From NCBI GenBank assembly GCA_021781115.1, contig JAJXXL010000507.1, positions 1 through 41,943 on the forward strand: a DNA stretch of 41,943 nucleotides, read 5' to 3'. Source of the stretch: Planctomycetota bacterium. GTDB lineage: Bacteria > Planctomycetota > Planctomycetia > Planctomycetales > Planctomycetaceae. A model generated the notes under the pieces. That model searched no databases. It saw nothing but the letters and a program-made list of their open reading frames with translations, and was not told the DNA's origin. Shown here piece by piece: positions 2,174 to 37,952 of this stretch (position 1 is the stretch's first letter; every line of letters starts with the position of its first letter). The position numbers were made by a program, and so were the translations under genes.

Positions 2174-3537
2174 ACACGCTGACCTCGCTGCAACGCAAGG
2201 CGATTTACGTGGGCGGAATCATTCTGTTGATCATTCCCGTGATCTTTCTGGGCATGCCCGCCGCCCCCGCCGGCTCAGGCAACGCCTCGGGCAGCGCCGG
2301 TGGGCTGCTGGTGCGGTTGCGGGCGGCGAACGACCTGGGCGAAAGTTCACTGGGCAAGGTCGACCCGGCCAGTGCCACGATGAACCTCGTGCTGCTCGGG
2401 CAGCGGGGCCTGGCGGCGTGCCTGTTGTGGATGGACTGGGACGAACAGCAAAAGACGAAGAACTGGGGCAAGCTGCGCTCGACGACCGAATCCATCATTT
2501 TGCTGGAGCCGCATTTCACAAAGGTCTGGGTGCACCAGGGCTGGAACCTGGCGTTTAACGTTTCTGCCGAGTGGGACCGGGTCGACGACCGGTACTACTG
2601 GGTCAAAGAGGGTGCGAAGTTCCTGCAAAACGGCGTGCTGCTGAACGAGCGTTACCCTGAGTTGTACTGGTATTCGGGCGATTTTCTGGGGAAGAAGATC
2701 GGGCGCTCTGACGAATGGAAGCAATTCCGCCACTTCTTTCGCGATGACCCCGACAAAGAGCATTACCCCAGCGGCCTCGACCCGCGAATCAACCCCGAAG
2801 GCAAAGACAATTACCTCGTGGCCCGCGGGTGGTTCAAGCAGGCCAACGACTGGCTCGACAACCCGCGTGGCAAGGAACAGCACGTGATGGCGAAGATTCT
2901 GTTCCGTTCGTACCCCACACGGGCCTTGCTCGACTTCGCCTCGACCTTGCAGCGTGAGGGCATTTTCGAAGAGGTCTGCCGCAAAGCGTGGGAAGACGCA
3001 TTCCAGGAATGGACGACCGTGTACGGCGCTGAAAAATATGAATCAGACGCGGGCCTCGTGCACCTCGAAGTCTCACGCGAGGAAGAAGCCGACCTGACCA
3101 AAGCCGAAAAAGACATTTCCGATGTGCGGAAAAAAATCAGCTTCTGGGTCGGGCGATACCAGGACATGACCAATTACCGTTACTGGCGCACCCGGGCCCT
3201 GGCCGAAGGCGAACAGAACACGGTCGAGGCCCACCGCGAATTGTACACCGGCGAGCGGGCTTATTTGCAGGGCAACTTCACCGAGGCGAAACAGTTGCTC
3301 GTCAGCGGCATGACCAAGTATGAAAAAATGGTGAACGATTATCCGCCGCTGGCCGACGACGACGAAACCATCGAAGAGGGGCTGATGGGCCAACTCAACT
3401 GGCGGGCCTGCCTGCTGCTCGACCAAGAGCCGGTGCCTGAAACGTACCCGCTTAAAAAGATGTGGACGGAAAAACAATCGCACATGCAGCGCGTCGAAGA
3501 CGACTTCAAGCGCCGCCGCCGCAACGCCTCACGCTGA
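2170..3537 (+). CDS. Membrane-anchored helical protein coupled to the ABC transporter
   Basis: I do not recognise the family. The product has 455 residues. Its start is placed at 2170 because this ATG overlaps the permease stop (ATGA) and has a GGAG ribosome site five bases upstream; an in-frame ATG at 2140 lies inside the permease gene. Residues 11-28 form a single membrane segment, followed by a Gly/Ala/Ser-rich linker. The rest is soluble, rich in Trp and Tyr, mostly helical, and looks like TPR-type repeats (LLEPHFTKVWVHQGWNLAFN; later GERAYLQGNFTEAKQLLVSG). The C-terminus is strongly basic (KRRRRN). Most likely it sits in the membrane with a large extracytoplasmic helical domain and assists the ABC exporter. 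Role inferred from position only. Confidence 0.85.
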   Translation: MNTLTSLQRKAIYVGGIILLIIPVIFLGMPAAPAGSGNASGSAGGLLVRLRAANDLGESSLGKVDPASATMNLVLLGQRGLAACLLWMDWDEQQKTKNWGKLRSTTESIILLEPHFTKVWVHQGWNLAFNVSAEWDRVDDRYYWVKEGAKFLQNGVLLNERYPELYWYSGDFLGKKIGRSDEWKQFRHFFRDDPDKEHYPSGLDPRINPEGKDNYLVARGWFKQANDWLDNPRGKEQHVMAKILFRSYPTRALLDFASTLQREGIFEEVCRKAWEDAFQEWTTVYGAEKYESDAGLVHLEVSREEEADLTKAEKDISDVRKKISFWVGRYQDMTNYRYWRTRALAEGEQNTVEAHRELYTGERAYLQGNFTEAKQLLVSGMTKYEKMVNDYPPLADDDETIEEGLMGQLNWRACLLLDQEPVPETYPLKKMWTEKQSHMQRVEDDFKRRRRNASR

Positions 3538-3597: not shown

Positions 3598-3616
3598 CCG
3601 GCCGAAAAGCGGCCGG
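3598..3616. terminator. GC-rich hairpin after the ABC operon
   Basis: A perfect 7-bp inverted repeat (CCGGCCG and CGGCCGG) surrounds a five-base AAAAG loop, 61 bp after the stop of the membrane-anchored gene. It is followed by a T-containing but not uniform stretch. It is a plausible transcription end for the plus-strand ABC operon, although the U-tract is weak. Confidence 0.4.
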
Positions 3617-3670: not shown

Positions 3671-4183
3671 TTAGACTTGCATGTCATTCGGCCGGTAACG
3701 ATCGGCGTCTGTTGGCTCTTGAAACGGTCCGATGACATCCCGATTCGAAACAAGATTAGCCATGCCCATCGCCCAATCTTTGATCCGCCGCTTCGCCTCC
3801 AAATCGTTGTCATAGCTGGCCCTGTTAATCTCAGGGACAACGCAGTGCGCCCAAGGCGCGCCAAACCTGGCGTCAAGTGAATCCGCAGTAGAACGAAAGC
3901 TCAGCCCCTGAAAGCCCGAGTCCGAGGGAAGTAGCTGCATTCTTGACGAGTTCACGATTGCAAGTCGAAACCGCACCTCAGGGTTTTCGAGGCGAAATGC
4001 AGACCAGATCTCCGTTCGGAGCCGGCTGCGAATGAAGGAAAGGCCATCGGTGTCATTGTTGGCAGGCAGGAACCTCGATTGGTGCACCGGAGGCGTTCGA
4101 GCGGGATCGAAATAGATCGGGTTTCCGCGCGGCCCGATTTGACGATACAGGAGTTCGTCTGCATGAACATCGGGCATTGTCAT
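3671..4183 (-). CDS. TIGR04255-cassette protein, third gene, function unknown
   Basis: The product has 170 residues, with no signal peptide or membrane segment, so it is probably cytoplasmic. It opens with MTMPDVHADELLYRQIGPRG and then has PANNDTDGLSFIRSR; I associate this layout with small proteins that travel with TIGR04255 genes, but this is memory of a pattern, not a search. A His-Cys pair (WAHCVV) sits near residue 112. The start could be 4183 or the second ATG at 4177, and neither has a clear ribosome site. It lies 42 bp after the second cassette gene and in the same reading frame; only one TGA separates the two frames. No catalytic motif was recognised. Confidence 0.72.
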   Translation of the reverse strand: MTMPDVHADELLYRQIGPRGNPIYFDPARTPPVHQSRFLPANNDTDGLSFIRSRLRTEIWSAFRLENPEVRFRLAIVNSSRMQLLPSDSGFQGLSFRSTADSLDARFGAPWAHCVVPEINRASYDNDLEAKRRIKDWAMGMANLVSNRDVIGPFQEPTDADRYRPNDMQV

Positions 4184-4225
4184 GTAGCTGGGCTCTGCAT
4201 AGACCTGAATTCGCGGTCGACGACG

Positions 4226-4672
4226 TCACGCACCTGCCGCCTGCGGACGCTGAGGGATCGGAACGATTTGCAGGATCCGGCCATCGACGTAGTCGGTACG
4301 TTCGGCGTTGGCAGTGTTGTAGAAGGTCAATTCCCAGACCCATTCACGCCCATCTGGCAGAGTTGCTCGTCGCTCAACAATTACTCCGCCCGCTGGTTCA
4401 GGGACAATGCAAGTAGGCGGCTCCCAGGGAGCTTGCTTTCTAAGAAAATTCAGCCAGGCAATTGCAGCCTCGATTGCTGAACGATTCGGCGGTGGATCAC
4501 CAATTGCCGATGGCGCATATAATGTCTGAAGTAGTGCGTCAAGACATTTGTTCCATTCAGGACTTTCCCTTGGCTGGGCTTCTGTATCAATGCTGTCCAG
4601 CCGCACGAATGGTGCGTCAGAAACCGGGCCTGTCTCTTCCCAGCTCGCGATTTTGTCAGTCGAGATCGGCAT
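4226..4672 (-). CDS. TIGR04255-cassette protein, second gene, function unknown
   Basis: This 148-residue protein has no signal peptide. The start is placed at 4672 because it is preceded by GGAG at a good distance; an in-frame ATG at 4738 would lie deep inside the upstream gene. The reading frame overlaps the end of the TIGR04255 gene by 17 bp, indicating co-translation. The middle has a helical stretch (AIEAAIAWLNFLRKQAPWEP). After it comes a beta-rich part with GGVIVERRATLPDGREWVWE, a form I associate with small proteins encoded beside TIGR04255 genes. The function is unknown. It is probably a partner or regulator of the upstream protein. Confidence 0.75.
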   Translation of the reverse strand: MPISTDKIASWEETGPVSDAPFVRLDSIDTEAQPRESPEWNKCLDALLQTLYAPSAIGDPPPNRSAIEAAIAWLNFLRKQAPWEPPTCIVPEPAGGVIVERRATLPDGREWVWELTFYNTANAERTDYVDGRILQIVPIPQRPQAAGA

Positions 4673-5510
4673 GTCGTCTCCATGCGCTTTTGGCAAGGTC
4701 CGATGCGATTCCGTCAAATGTACGCACGATCCACTCATGCCCGCGACCTATCCCGGATTCAATGGGATCAATACCAGAATCTTTTGCCGTCCCGGAATCA
4801 GCGCCAATTGGGCCTCGGGCGGTCAAACTGAGCAGCAGAACATCCTGGTGCGGTTCCCCGACGGAACGCCCAGGCTTTGACTCGACGAAAAGCCGTGCGG
4901 GGGGATCGGTCAATTCCCAGATCCACTGCCCTTGAAACCCCCGCAACTCAGCGCCTTCCGACGCGGCAAAGCCGCCCCCCCAGAGCCCGGGAAAAATCTT
5001 CGGCCAGTCGCTCGGCTCGCTCCAAAGGTTGTATTTCGGGACTCGGTTGACGTATGTCAGTTCCCAAAGGCGTGATTTGGGGGGCACTATTTTATAATCG
5101 CCGAGGAATGCCTGCCATGCTTGCCAAGCATCCCGAAAACGATCCCATGTAACACCAAACCGCGGGTAATCTTTGGTTCGTTTTCTCCAATTGAAGACGA
5201 GTCGGTTTCGTTGAACCTGACACATCCACTGATCGTCGGCCGATGTCATCTGGAGTCGACAATCAGGTTCACTCGTCAATGCCAATTGCAACGACGGCGA
5301 CAGCCATTGGCCCTGGCTGCCAAAGTCTTCGTTCGTCATGGCGATGGGCGGCATGGCGCGGACGTTAGGCAGGGTTTCCCTTTGCGTGACCCAAAACGCG
5401 CCAAGGTGGGCCTGATTCAGACCCTTGGGAGGATCAAACTGAACCGACATCGCCACCTCGACAAGTGGCGGCGCTTTGTAGGTAATGGAAGACGAAAGCT
5501 GCGGACCCAA
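4656..5510 (-). CDS. TIGR04255 family protein
   Basis: The product has 284 residues and resembles the family named TIGR04255, which is sporadically distributed and of unknown function. The hallmark is near the N-terminus: YKAPPLVEVAMSVQFDPP, then LNQAHLGAFW. Further matching features are LVFNWRKR in the middle and a WELTYVNR strand near residue 155. No signal peptide or membrane segment is present. It is the first gene of a three-gene minus-strand cassette whose downstream genes overlap it or lie close to it. The cassette looks less GC-rich than its neighbours by eye, which fits acquisition by transfer. A weak promoter candidate, with a TACAAT-like -10 at 5672-5677 but no good -35, lies upstream. 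Confidence 0.82.
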   Translation of the reverse strand: MGPQLSSSITYKAPPLVEVAMSVQFDPPKGLNQAHLGAFWVTQRETLPNVRAMPPIAMTNEDFGSQGQWLSPSLQLALTSEPDCRLQMTSADDQWMCQVQRNRLVFNWRKRTKDYPRFGVTWDRFRDAWQAWQAFLGDYKIVPPKSRLWELTYVNRVPKYNLWSEPSDWPKIFPGLWGGGFAASEGAELRGFQGQWIWELTDPPARLFVESKPGRSVGEPHQDVLLLSLTARGPIGADSGTAKDSGIDPIESGIGRGHEWIVRTFDGIASDLAKSAWRRHADLD

Positions 5511-5786
5511 GGTTCACTCCCGTGTTCGACGCTGATTCCTTGTAAGTCGGCGGATCTGGCCGAAGGCTCCGCTCAATTTCGGCTCGTTCAGTGCAGCTCG
5601 CGGATACGGCCAAGCTCACACCATCGTGGCCCGCGACAAAAGAATGTAGGGTGATTCGCATACCGTTCTGTATTGTATCCCCAGAGGCCTTTTTTTCACA
5701 GTTCAGCCGGGCAAGTCGAAACCCATTCCACCTGACAATATCGCGGGCGACAGGCAACACGCCCGGAGGCGGGTTGGCCCCCGCGT

Positions 5787-24002: not shown

Positions 24003-25736
24003 TCAGGCCGCCAAAATTGTCGGGGCGTGCCTGGCAGGGCTGCCTGAATCGCAAAGAAGCTGCCCAAACTGCCCAGTCGCGCCGGATTTGGCGAGTTTTT
24101 CGAGCAATGAACGCACCGACGCCGCGCGCAGCAGGTTCCAGCCGGCGACTTTCAGCAAGACGCTCATGAACACGGCCGGTTGGCCGCGAACTCGTAGTCG
24201 TCCCAGGCCCGTCACCCGTTTTAAGAGACTGTTGGTCGACTCGATTCCGCTCCGCATGCGGTACTTCGATTTGAACTCTTCGGTCTGTTCGCGGCGTCGG
24301 CGGGTGATCAGCCGGACCTGCTTGCGATTGATGGTGACTTTCGACCAGCCGTCTGCAATTCGTGTCGGACACTTCGAACGCAGGGGACAGCGGGCACAGA
24401 CCTGCGGATCTTGAACGATCGTGATCTGGTCGGTGAAGGCATCATAGGACGATCGATGCGGCTCGAGACCGGCTGGACAGGCAATGCATTTGGGGTGGGG
24501 CTCGGCCAATCCCCAGGCACCGATTCGCGCGCCCTCTTCGACCACGAAATCTGCGGCCGTCAGGGCGTCGTCAGCGACATGATTCTCGGGACACTTTCCC
24601 GATGTCGGGGAGATCAGATCGATCCCCATCTGGCGGCAACGGCAGTGATTCTCGTCTCCACCATAAGCGGTATCCGCCGTAAGTTGCGATGGCAACAAGT
24701 TCTGATTCTGCAGGTCGTCGAGCACATCTTTCAGCGCTGCCGAGTCGGTCTGACAGGCGGTTTCGGGTATGGCCGACAGGATCAATTGAACTTCGTTGTC
24801 GGGACTGCAGGTTTCTGAGAGCTGCACCTGGTAGCCCGAACCTTTATGGCCGTCCAGAGTCGCGTCGGGATCAGACGGATTGCAGACGATGTCGCCCCCC
24901 GGCTTGCTCCGCACCACCACGCGATCCCCCGTGAGTTCGCATTGCTGCTCGAACACTTTGGCCAGCATCGCGTAAGTGGACCGGCTGGTGTGGTTCTCGT
25001 TGCGGCGAGAGCGCTCCACCAGATAAGCGAGGTCTTCCGCGACGCTTTGACGCAACGCGGTGACACCGTCGTCATCGAGAGTTTTCCAGCCGAAGATCGC
25101 ACCGCTCGCCGCTTCATACCGCTCACGAACTGTGCTGAGAATCTGGGAGTAGCTTTCCTCGTCGTGACGCTTCACCTGCGTCAGAAACCGGCGAATGGCC
25201 GTGCTCATCAGCCTGATCCGGCCAAACTTGGCCAGATTGGATTCGAGGTGCGTGGAGTCCAGACGCTGCTCGGAAACATCTAGTTCCAGCAGTGTCACCA
25301 GTTCCGCCGTCACGTCGTGCATGATCTCCTGGGCCAGATCATCTTCACGAAACAGCGCGATGGAGCGCTCGATCGTCCGACGGCAGAGACTCTGCTGCTC
25401 CGGTCTCAGATTCAGTGCGTATTGAACGTCCACGTTGAACATGTACGCGTCGGCGGCTTCTTCGTGAGTCCAGTCGCGAAACTCCTTGATAAACAGCAGG
25501 CCGGCCATTGAGTACAACTCTTTGGTCGGACGGCCGATTACCGGGTGAAAGTGATCGGCCAGCTTCCCGGCAGGCAACCGCTTCAAAATGGCCAGCCGAA
25601 ACAGATGCTGCCATCCGCTTCGCAGCTTCCGGTAAGCGACCGGCGACAGAATGTCGGCAAACAAGTCAAACAGATCGGTTTGTCGAGGATCATCCAGATG
25701 CCGCACAACGTCGCTCCTTCTGTAAGTGCCGAGCAA
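24003..25736 (-). CDS. IS1182-like family transposase
   Basis: The product has 577 residues, within the normal range for this group. The N-terminal DUF772-like region has a helical stretch with RPTKELYSMAGLLFIKEF and RDWTHEEAADAYMFNVD. The DDE active site is visible: RLDSTHLESN supplies the first Asp, LTADTAYGGDEN the second, and RSGIESTNSLLKR the Glu. Between the last two lies a Cys-rich zinc-ribbon-like part (KCIACPAGLEPH; CARCPLRSKC). There are no frameshifts or internal stops. The start codon lies 83 bp inside the right inverted repeat. Confidence 0.9.
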   Translation of the reverse strand: MLGTYRRSDVVRHLDDPRQTDLFDLFADILSPVAYRKLRSGWQHLFRLAILKRLPAGKLADHFHPVIGRPTKELYSMAGLLFIKEFRDWTHEEAADAYMFNVDVQYALNLRPEQQSLCRRTIERSIALFREDDLAQEIMHDVTAELVTLLELDVSEQRLDSTHLESNLAKFGRIRLMSTAIRRFLTQVKRHDEESYSQILSTVRERYEAASGAIFGWKTLDDDGVTALRQSVAEDLAYLVERSRRNENHTSRSTYAMLAKVFEQQCELTGDRVVVRSKPGGDIVCNPSDPDATLDGHKGSGYQVQLSETCSPDNEVQLILSAIPETACQTDSAALKDVLDDLQNQNLLPSQLTADTAYGGDENHCRCRQMGIDLISPTSGKCPENHVADDALTAADFVVEEGARIGAWGLAEPHPKCIACPAGLEPHRSSYDAFTDQITIVQDPQVCARCPLRSKCPTRIADGWSKVTINRKQVRLITRRRREQTEEFKSKYRMRSGIESTNSLLKRVTGLGRLRVRGQPAVFMSVLLKVAGWNLLRAASVRSLLEKLAKSGATGQFGQLLCDSGSPARHAPTILAA

Positions 25737-34896: not shown

Positions 34897-35729
34897 GACG
34901 GTCCAATCCTCGTGCGTGCGTGGCAGGTGGGGCCTGCCGACAGAGTTTGTGTAGCGATGCTCAGGGCCGCGGACACTGCGGGGAGCCAGCGCGGCCACCC
35001 GGTGGAGGCGTCCGCACCCACCTCAATCCGATTCGTGTGTGCTCAGCGAAGTCACTGCGCCGGCCCTGGCCTTTTGCGTGCTGACAGGCCCGCCGCCAAC
35101 CCGCCACGGGGACGGCGCACAACGGCGATTTTTCTGCGCCGTCGTTTGCTGCTCGGGCCGAGCGTCGACAGGTCCACAACCAATGGTTCCGTCGATTACT
35201 TGTAGCAAACTTAGCCGTCAAGTTAAAGCCGCCCCAAGCTCAAAGGGGCAAAATCACGAATCAGATACCCGAGATTTTGTGCATGGCGGCATTTGGCCGG
35301 TCGCCATCGGGCTGGAACGATGCCTCAGTTCGCCGATTCGCACGAAACTGAATGCTGTCGCCATCAACCTGTGTCGAAACGGCATTGTGGTCGGGGCAAA
35401 AACAAATCCGAAAAGCGGTTTGTCTTGGTTCGCGTGAACTGAACGAAGTCAGCGGCAGGATTTCAGAAACATCGTCAGGAATAACTTGTTATTCCATAAA
35501 TCGTTGCGGAATGGATGCCGCTGCGGTGTCAGCCAGGGGTGGGGCTTGGGCCCCGGCGGCTGTCGCGGGAATCAATCGCGGTTTATGCATGTCGTGTTTT
35601 GGCGGTTGTTCTGGCTGGCCCGGGGGAGATGTCGCGTCGCGCGGGGCGATATTGTATTATGTGCGGCACAAGAGTGGGCGCTGGTGATGCGCCGCGCGGG
35701 TTTCAAGGTTTCGCCACGAAAAGACTGAC
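34897..35729. other. Intergenic region between carA and the M50/HlyD gene
   Basis: This 833-base divergent gap has no gene I can support. Short frames such as 35039-35437 (+) and 35352-35687 (+) have no conserved motif and no clear ribosome site. It should contain the promoters of carA (minus) and of the M50/HlyD gene (plus), but none is convincing. The palindrome at 35478-35495 is the one clear feature. Confidence 0.5.
35478..35495. repeat. Near-perfect 18-bp palindrome
   Basis: GGAATAAC and GTTATTCC are exact reverse complements separated by TT. It lies about 235 bp before the M50/HlyD start. The AT-rich sequence inside a GC-rich genome suggests an operator or binding site; there is no U-tract to make it a terminator. 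Confidence 0.35.
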
Positions 35730-37952
35730 ATGAGCAGTGCGGCTTCCAACCTGTTGCCCTCGTCGCAGCGGCCCGTGCCGCTCCTGATGCGGGCTGATCT
35801 GAAAATCGAGCGCATTCCGTATCAGAAGGCAAGTTCATGGGTTATCAAGGATCCGATCACGCTGAAGTATTACCGGTTTCAGCCTGAGCAGTATCGCATT
35901 CTCGAACTGCTTGACGGGCAACGAAACTTGGAACAGATCCGCGATGAATTTCATCGCGATTTTCCGGCAGCGAACCTGACACTGGAGGAAATTCAAAGCC
36001 TGATCAGCGACCTGTACCGATCGGGGTTGGCGTACAGCAACCGCCTGGGGCAGGGCGCAGCGCTGCTTAAGCAGAAGCGCGAACAGATGGTCAAAAAACT
36101 TCTGGGAACGCTACGAAACATTCTTTACCTGCGTGTGCCGGGCTGGGATCCAGAACGTACGCTGACGTTTCTGCACCCCTATTTTCAGTGGATGTTCAGC
36201 CCCTTCGGGGTGGTGCTGGCAGTGGGCACGGCCCTGGCCGCCGGCGGATTGCTGGCCGTGCAGTTCGACGAATTTCAACATCGGCTGCCTGAATTCCGAC
36301 AGTTTTTCGGCTGGCCGAACCTGCTGTACATGTGGCTGGTTCTGGGCGCCGCGAAGATCATTCATGAGTTTGGGCATGGACTGACGTGCAATCATTTCGG
36401 AGGCGAATGCCACGAAATGGGGGTGATGCTGCTGGTGTTCAGCCCCTGCCTGTATTGCGATGTTTCCGATTCGTGGATGCTGAAAAACAAATGGAAGCGG
36501 ATCATGATCGGGGCCGCGGGCATGTACATTGAAATCTGGTTGTCGTCGCTGGCAATTTTTGCCTGGTGGTTCACGCAACCGGGGCTGGTGCACCACTTGT
36601 GCCTGAACCTGTTTTTTGTGTCGACGGTCACGACTGTCATTTTCAACGCCAACCCGCTGATGCGGTACGACGGCTACTACATGCTGGCCGATTGGCTGGA
36701 AATTCCCAATCTGCGCCCCAAAGCCGACCGCCTGATGCGCGAAACGTTCGCCTGGTACTGCCTGGGCATTGAAGCCCGGCCCGACCCGTTTATGCCCCAA
36801 CGGGGCAAGGGCTGGTTTATTCTATTTGCGATCGCTTCGGCGATTTACCGGTGGTTCATCCTGTTTGCGATTACCCTGTTTTTTTACACCTTTTTGAAGC
36901 CGTACGGTTTACAAAGCATCGGTGTGGCCATGGCAGTGGTTTCGGTCGTTTCGATCGCCGCATCGCTGGTGTACACGGTGTATCAGCTCATTTCCACCCC
37001 CCGGAGAGACCCCATGAGCACCCGCAAAGTCAGCGTTTCACTGGTTCTGCTCGCCCTGCTGGTGGGGGCGGGACTGATGATTCCCTTCCCGTGGAGCCTC
37101 GAGGCGGCCCTGGTCATTGAGCCGCACGACGTTCAATCGGTGTATGTCGTTACGCCGGGGCGGCTGGTCAGCCTGCATGTCAAGCCGGGCCAAACGGTCA
37201 AGCGGGGCGACCTTCTGGCCAAGTTGACCAATTTTGAAAAGGAGCAGGAGTATCGCCGCCTGCAGCGCGAGGCCGCGGTGCAAAAGATCGAAATTGAATT
37301 GCAACATTCGCTGCAGGAACGGGCCCGCGAAAAGCTCGCCCGCGAAAAGCTGCAAACCATTGAAGAACAGTTGGCCGATTATGCAGACCAGTTGGCCAAG
37401 CTCACGATCGTGGCCCCCTGCGACGGTGTGGTCGTCAGTCCGCCGCGAACCCCCGAACCGAAACTCGACCCGATGCGCGCGAAACTGCCGCGGTGGCATG
37501 GAACGCCGCTTTCTCCGCGAAATCGCGACTGTTTCCTCGAACCGCGAACGCATTTGCTCAGCATTGCCCCCGATGGCAAATTCCAGGCGGTGCTGCTGGT
37601 CGATCAGGCCGACCGCAACGACCTCAGCGAAGGCCAGAAAGTACGGCTCAAGCTCGATCACCTGCCCGAACGGACGTTCAAGGGAAAAATCGCCGACATT
37701 TCCATCCGCCACGTCGATTTCGCACCCCGCGAACTCTCGAACAAGTACGAGGGCGATGTCCCCACAGTCACCGATCCAGAAGGTCGCGAAAAACTGACCA
37801 GCCCCGCCTACCAGGCGTCTGTCGTGCTCGACGAAGATGTGGATCTGTTTCGCTCGGGATTTCGCGGGCGGGCCAAATTTGTCGTGGCGCATCGTTCGGC
37901 AGGAGACTGGCTCGCCCGCTACCTCCGCCGCACGTTTCACTTCCGCCTGTGA
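35730..37952 (+). CDS. PqqD-like, peptidase M50 and HlyD-like fusion membrane protein
   Basis: The product has 740 residues. The N-terminus (about 25-100) resembles a PqqD-like winged helix (ITLKYYRFQPEQYRILELLDG). Then comes a site-2-protease-type membrane domain with HEFGHGLTCNHFGG at about 212 (zinc His, Glu, His) and NPLMRYDGYYMLADWLEI near 310 supplying the third ligand. Several further membrane helices extend to about 425. The last 300 residues form a HlyD-like half: a membrane helix, a biotinyl/lipoyl-like segment (VVTPGRLVSLHVKPGQTVKRGD), a coiled coil, and a beta barrel near 590-740. This combined form is known from planctomycete genomes. It may link protein processing to export. Confidence 0.92.
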   Translation: MSSAASNLLPSSQRPVPLLMRADLKIERIPYQKASSWVIKDPITLKYYRFQPEQYRILELLDGQRNLEQIRDEFHRDFPAANLTLEEIQSLISDLYRSGLAYSNRLGQGAALLKQKREQMVKKLLGTLRNILYLRVPGWDPERTLTFLHPYFQWMFSPFGVVLAVGTALAAGGLLAVQFDEFQHRLPEFRQFFGWPNLLYMWLVLGAAKIIHEFGHGLTCNHFGGECHEMGVMLLVFSPCLYCDVSDSWMLKNKWKRIMIGAAGMYIEIWLSSLAIFAWWFTQPGLVHHLCLNLFFVSTVTTVIFNANPLMRYDGYYMLADWLEIPNLRPKADRLMRETFAWYCLGIEARPDPFMPQRGKGWFILFAIASAIYRWFILFAITLFFYTFLKPYGLQSIGVAMAVVSVVSIAASLVYTVYQLISTPRRDPMSTRKVSVSLVLLALLVGAGLMIPFPWSLEAALVIEPHDVQSVYVVTPGRLVSLHVKPGQTVKRGDLLAKLTNFEKEQEYRRLQREAAVQKIEIELQHSLQERAREKLAREKLQTIEEQLADYADQLAKLTIVAPCDGVVVSPPRTPEPKLDPMRAKLPRWHGTPLSPRNRDCFLEPRTHLLSIAPDGKFQAVLLVDQADRNDLSEGQKVRLKLDHLPERTFKGKIADISIRHVDFAPRELSNKYEGDVPTVTDPEGREKLTSPAYQASVVLDEDVDLFRSGFRGRAKFVVAHRSAGDWLARYLRRTFHFRL

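Follow-up and report, generated by a model that had tools for sequence, protein, structure and literature searches.

A three-gene cassette of the order P1-P2-P3, headed by a gene of the TIGR04255 family, is horizontally mobile and in some cases carried by phages, and an apparently intact copy of it occupies positions 3671-5510 of the window, that is, of the whole 41,943-nucleotide stretch of DNA analysed here (contig C62; the assembly totals 5.74 Mb). The second and third genes form a near-obligate pair, and the first gene is exchangeable, its place being taken by TIGR04255, DUF3467-like or other proteins. TIGR04255 is an uncharacterised family of sporadic distribution, and a subgroup of it that travels with two unnamed families across phyla offers a shared, testable role for all three. 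The best explanation, to which we give somewhat less than an even chance, is that the cassette is a tripartite module, phage-borne and serving as a toxin-antitoxin or defence system in a manner like CmdTAC, with P3 as its effector. It is likely a tripartite mobile module that recurs in Planctomycetota and is absent from the defence catalogue searched (PADLOC-DB 2.0.0).

The cassette in the window

The three minus-strand genes described in the earlier note, with P1 overlapping P2, are all present as open reading frames (ORFs), and are flanked by a plus-strand gene that ends at 3537 and by one on the minus strand at 7367-5787. The features of the block are as follows.

5511-5786, no strand assigned: upstream intergenic region, probably the promoter region of the cassette
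5510-4656, minus strand: P1, TIGR04255 family, 284 aa, first gene of the cassette
4226-4672, minus strand: P2, about 148 aa from the likelier start, an ATG at 4672
4183-3671, minus strand: P3, 170 aa, last gene, with a predicted ADP-ribosyltransferase-like fold
3598-3616, plus strand: GC-rich, terminator-like hairpin from a consensus scan, between the cassette and the flank gene that converges on it

P1 begins with a TTG codon preceded by GGGAG and scores 52.6 bits against the NCBIfam model TIGR04255 (cut-off 30); at the profile level it aligns to positions 2-153 of 252 alone, and in a quick tree of P1 proteins its nearest relatives are Planctomycetota. The longest ORF for P2 spans 4226-4738, but the ATG at 4672, with GGAG just upstream, appears from the sequence to be a likelier start than 4738, and with it P1 and P2 overlap by 17 nt (family median, -19). 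P3 starts 42 nt beyond the end of P2. A promoter-like site on the minus strand (5699-5672) matches by consensus alone (9/12), terminator-like sites in the region number 7 against 2.5 expected, and neither trustworthy bounding repeats nor a tRNA were found at the cassette.

The impression that the block is less GC-rich than the genes around it was borne out by measurement: its GC content is 0.560, where sliding windows of the same size average 0.619 (rank 4 of 402), and GC at third codon positions (GC3) is 0.60 in P1, 0.50 in P2 and 0.60 in P3, compared with 0.76-0.81 in five flanking genes, so that the composition of the block differs from that of its flanks. Elsewhere in the window, 35100-37000 is a second, equally GC-poor block (0.557) with no clear long gene, and a 577-aa ORF at 24003-25736 (minus strand) looks transposase-like by eye, its sole match being a PHROG of unknown function (phrog_8928, 1e-12).

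A conserved triad with an exchangeable first gene

A five-protein profile of P1 was run against the genome collection, and the best 80 of 88 confirmed matches gave 79 loci, which span eleven phylum-level groups. Profiles of P2 (12 seeds) and P3 (11 seeds), built from the proteins behind P1 in other genomes and in the window, were then searched against the full set of 5474 ORFs in these loci. P2 lies directly behind P1 in 77 of the 79 and P3 follows in 74, with one match each, and because the P2 and P3 matches fall solely directly behind P1, always in the order P1-P2-P3, the triad is a real unit, far beyond chance. The five loci in which it is incomplete (L100, L106, L135, L140 and L152) are all at contig ends, and in L106, also recovered as L186, a truncated P3 can be recognised by its start (E 0.006). 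Another set of five among the 79 (L085, L086, L106, L108 and L145) coincide with seed contigs and are therefore not independent. With longest-ORF starts, the P1 and P2 ORFs overlap in 71/77 loci and the gap between P2 and P3 is at most 60 nt in 71/74. The identity matrices of P1, P2 and P3 correlate (Spearman 0.62, 0.64 and 0.56, with 0 of 500 permutations as high), as expected of a co-inherited unit. One locus (L009, G013:C54) is perhaps a decaying copy: a TAG stop interrupts its P1 gene, and P2 and P3 still follow.

Within the phylum, 66 of 392 genomes have TIGR04255 proteins and 20 of 294 have P1-like ones. Among the best-scoring TIGR04255 matches of the phylum, P2 and P3 are found in 4 of 30 loci, some of which are cut by contig ends, and for this reason the triad marks a TIGR04255 subgroup and not the whole family. 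Hence, the conserved triad considered in the earlier note holds for P1's subgroup, in which homologues of each partner gene stand next to other TIGR04255 genes, but does not extend to the family at large, most top-scoring members of which, unlike P1's subgroup, do not carry P2 and P3.

The search from P3 found it in 24/294 genomes of the phylum, with a P2 gene directly upstream in every one of the 30 loci returned, which represent 28 distinct places; the P2 gene was entered in the profile by eye for L172 and L179, and that of L182 is a weak match (E 0.008). The first gene is of the TIGR04255 type in 19 of these places and none is detectable in 9. Searched from P2, P3 is present at 28 of 30 loci and absent in 2. 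P2-P3 are thus a near-obligate pair, and since they stand without a TIGR04255 gene in 9 of 28 places, it is P2-P3 and not P1 that forms the constant part of the system. In L220 and L228, the first gene is DUF3467-like (PF11950; 90% probability in a profile comparison), whereas the small first genes of L222, L227 and L229 gave no DUF3467 match (3.4%, profile comparison). In two further loci the P2 domain is part of a fusion with a long N-terminal region, and P3 follows (L218:5152-6276, minus strand; L219:2852-4870, plus strand), a two-gene form of the system; the N-terminal region of the L218 fusion matches no family. P2-type domain genes were also seen without a detected P3 (L221-L226), some of them behind other small unknown genes.

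Outside Planctomycetota, P3 was found in 9 of 289 genomes of the class to which the Pelagibius genome belongs. Thirteen additional P3 loci, comprising 9 from that class besides L311 and 4 second copies, have a recognised P2 in 9 cases; L337 and L340 lie at the ends of contigs, and in L333 and L341 the P3 homologue lies behind a gene that the P2 profile fails to recognise, so that among these 13 loci P3 lacks an upstream partner gene at contig ends alone. L341, from another class, has a small first gene at 2593-3009, a gene in P2's place at 1922-2596 and P3 at 1456-1986, all on the minus strand.

Mobility and genomic setting

That the cassette might be a discrete mobile system was one suggestion of the earlier note, and it is upheld by the patchy distribution of the triad, the conflict of the P1 tree with taxonomy, three phage or prophage gene clusters that carry the triad, and a plasmid on which it lies beside a relaxase gene. 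In a quick tree of 74 P1 proteins, Planctomycetota require 12 label changes, at least 4 of them forced by well-supported branches, and one P1 protein from Acidobacteriota pairs with one from Phycisphaerales (support 99). The window's P1 clusters with those of L075-L077 (support 100). The triad of L076, whose P1 is 63% identical to that of the window, has a terminase gene (phrog_38, 4e-35) on one side and a portal gene (phrog_21, 4e-64) on the other, a head/protease gene comes next, and L076 is thus a prophage or phage contig; in L075 a DDE_3 transposase lies at 269 nt. The whole triad is also present on two IMG/VR contigs, with an integrase-like gene on one side and terminase- and portal-like genes on the other in L343, and surrounded by tail-like genes in L345, all named by eye. 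On a Mycobacterium paragordonae plasmid, the sole plasmid record with P1, a MobF relaxase gene is directly followed by TIGR04255, P2 and P3 genes; PLSDB types this plasmid as non-mobilizable, despite the relaxase gene. Phage records in INPHARED gave no P1 match, nor did a viral scan with the window's P1 as sole query; the P3 relatives L201 and L213 gave no match in plasmids, and L201 none in phages.

Presence of the triad inside phage gene clusters (L076, L343 and L345) would also be accounted for if it were phage anti-defence or host-takeover cargo that was later stranded in chromosomes, but the whole triad has long been retained in many phyla with P3 residues conserved, which suggests a benefit to the cell, and this explanation is very unlikely.

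Composition and context agree with mobility. In the 58 of 74 P3-bearing loci with at least four neighbours, the GC3 of P1 is below the neighbours' mean in 52, with a mean difference of -0.122. The genes that flank the cassette in the window were found in 30/30 and 25/30 relatives, never adjacent, and the cassette sits at a synteny break, since in the eight genomes with both flank genes on one contig these are separated by 0.5 Mb or more. This comparison with 30 relatives revealed no simple empty site, and none of four window flank genes is present in the 79 P1 loci.

The scan for defence islands, made without a control set, covered 112 nearest-neighbour proteins out of 127, the other 15 being mostly short. 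The families are mostly metabolic, among the first 25 listed for the 112 proteins, and defence neighbours are few (two DrmA-like, and one each of type I methyltransferase, mads_2 and type III restriction). An ordinary metabolic operon of the chromosome would suit the mostly metabolic character of the commonest flanking families, and is nonetheless highly improbable given the patchiness of P1 in the phylum, the low GC3, carriage on phages and a plasmid, and the lack of a fixed neighbourhood, with flank genes shared by nearly all relatives yet not adjacent.

The metabolic neighbours bear as well on a different proposal, that P2-P3 is a classical toxin-antitoxin pair with a third subunit, which serves the maintenance of lysogeny or plasmids (addiction) and has no anti-phage role. 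P2-P3 has the layout of type II systems, being adjacent and co-directional with the putative antitoxin first. This antitoxin-first order, the carriage of the cassette at differing places on phage and plasmid contigs, the occurrence of P2 without P3 (2/30 P2 loci; L221-L226) and the restriction of partnerless P3 to contig ends all speak for such a module; most copies, however, are chromosomal and beside metabolic genes, and we consider it rather unlikely.

Predicted folds and possible roles

The AF2 model of P1 (pLDDT 87.3) has two beta-alpha-beta(n)-alpha repeats, and VIA places it nearest to guanidino kinases (Z 9.9 at rmsd 4.2 for 193 residues, identity 5-8%), with the protein arginine kinase McsB at Z 8.1, and, lower in the list, to TBP (Z about 6). 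In Foldseek the sole match under 0.001 is an AdoMetDC prozyme (TM 0.25), guanidino kinases not being significant. An alignment of 16 P1 sequences has 16 invariant columns, among them E18, R85, Q98, Q100, N107, E150, R206 and R232. The cassette could accordingly be conceived as a mobile accessory module in which P1 is the active part, a ligand- or nucleotide-binding protein of guanidino-kinase-like fold, P3 is not an enzyme, and P2 and P3 are regulators or structural partners. The Z scores for guanidino kinases and McsB and the invariant residues argue for it, as do the 26 of 30 top-scoring loci where TIGR04255 genes occur without P2 and P3, which imply that P1 can act alone; against it stand the Foldseek result, the low identity, and the places in which P2-P3 occurs without any TIGR04255 gene, and it seems improbable. 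TIGR04255 has no mention in the main text of the open-licence PMC papers searched.

P2 and P3 match no family in Pfam, NCBIfam or PADLOC. P2 matches DUF6446 at E 0.15, below its cut-off, and members of the first P3 (15 rows) and P2 (18 rows) alignments gave only scattered weak Pfam matches, including zinc-ribbon matches in one P3 member. No model of a known anti-phage system in PADLOC-DB 2.0.0 matches P1, P2 or P3 at E up to 5. The AF2 model of P3, from a 72-row alignment, has a pLDDT of 92.7 and no significant match in Foldseek (best E 0.6). In a second look with VIA, the titles of rows 1-8 name ADP-ribosyltransferases and that of row 9 an NADase; the best match, 9lda_A, has a Z of 6.3 (91 residues, rmsd 3.1), a value within the range of chance arrangements, and the next have Z 3.3 and lower. 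The list appears notable because its top rows are uniform, not because of the Z of 6.3. The matches listed in VIA for P1 and P3 include no SecB, DarT or RES fold. A viral fold library yielded no match, and sequence searches of solved structures no useful one. The structure set 9lda is titled RNA 2'-phosphotransferase (Tpt1/KptA, PF01885), which P3 resembles by eye in the order of strands and helices, and from which it differs in lacking profile similarity (1.8% probability, 4 sequences) and the N-terminal lobe and in its other conserved residues.

ADP-ribosyltransferases have the catalytic sets R-S-E or H-Y-E. Across 72 family members and 22 divergent sequences, P3 conserves S49 (94/94), H113 (91/94), R14 (85/94) and F38 (84/94), and a 39-row alignment that covers all contexts shows no variation at S49 or H113. 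Going by strand order, not superposition, we take R14 and S49 to stand at the Arg and Ser places of the R-S-E enzymes, and H113 presumably near that of the Glu; P3 therefore has the Arg and Ser of the set, with a His as the third residue and the glutamate missing. With moderate support, P3 may be assigned an ADP-ribosyltransferase-like fold.

The nearest working parallel is CmdTAC, described as a tripartite toxin-antitoxin-chaperone system, whose ADP-ribosyltransferase toxin acts on mRNA, has an H-Y-[E,D,Q] triad, and is restrained by an antitoxin and a SecB-like chaperone until freed at phage infection (PMC11618068). Like CmdTAC, the cassette consists of three small co-directional genes, is mobile, has a defence-type setting, and includes one protein (P3) with a predicted ADP-ribosyltransferase fold. 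Unlike it, P1 has no SecB match and P3 conserves Arg-Ser-His (R14, S49, H113). By sequence, P1, P2 and P3 have no SecB match in Pfam at E up to 5, and the window's genome has none either; because both the SecB match and the HY-[EDQ] triad are lacking, the cassette is not a TAC member.

Gene order, P2-P3 linkage, the exchangeable first gene, carriage on phages and a plasmid and the possible fold of P3 fit together in the reading of the cassette as a tripartite toxin-antitoxin or defence module. P3, small and with an unusual conserved Arg-Ser-His set on an ADP-ribosyltransferase-like fold, would be the effector; P2, translated just ahead of it, would be its antitoxin or folding partner; and the two-lobed alpha/beta protein P1 would be the exchangeable third part, sensing a signal or keeping the pair inactive, a place that DUF3467-like or other unknown proteins would fill in other bacteria. 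P3 might then be set free by a trigger such as a second infecting phage, and would modify its target or consume it with NAD+. The defence or toxin role raised in the earlier note thereby gains from the weak fold match of P3 and from phage and plasmid carriage, but is weakened by the lack of a PADLOC model and the mostly metabolic neighbours. A bolder version, doubtful though of some weight, is an undescribed phage-borne immunity system in which a constant P2-P3 pair with a new Arg-Ser-His active site is served by exchangeable first subunits as sensors or keepers; if true, TIGR04255 and two nameless families would thereby gain a role. That the first gene is swapped while P2-P3 stays constant suggests separate sensing and effector parts.

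DUF3467, mentioned in one unrelated paper among the open-licence PMC papers searched, supplies alternative first genes and is absent from the window's cassette, and the same genome (G000) has three matches to it on two other contigs, C217 and C160.
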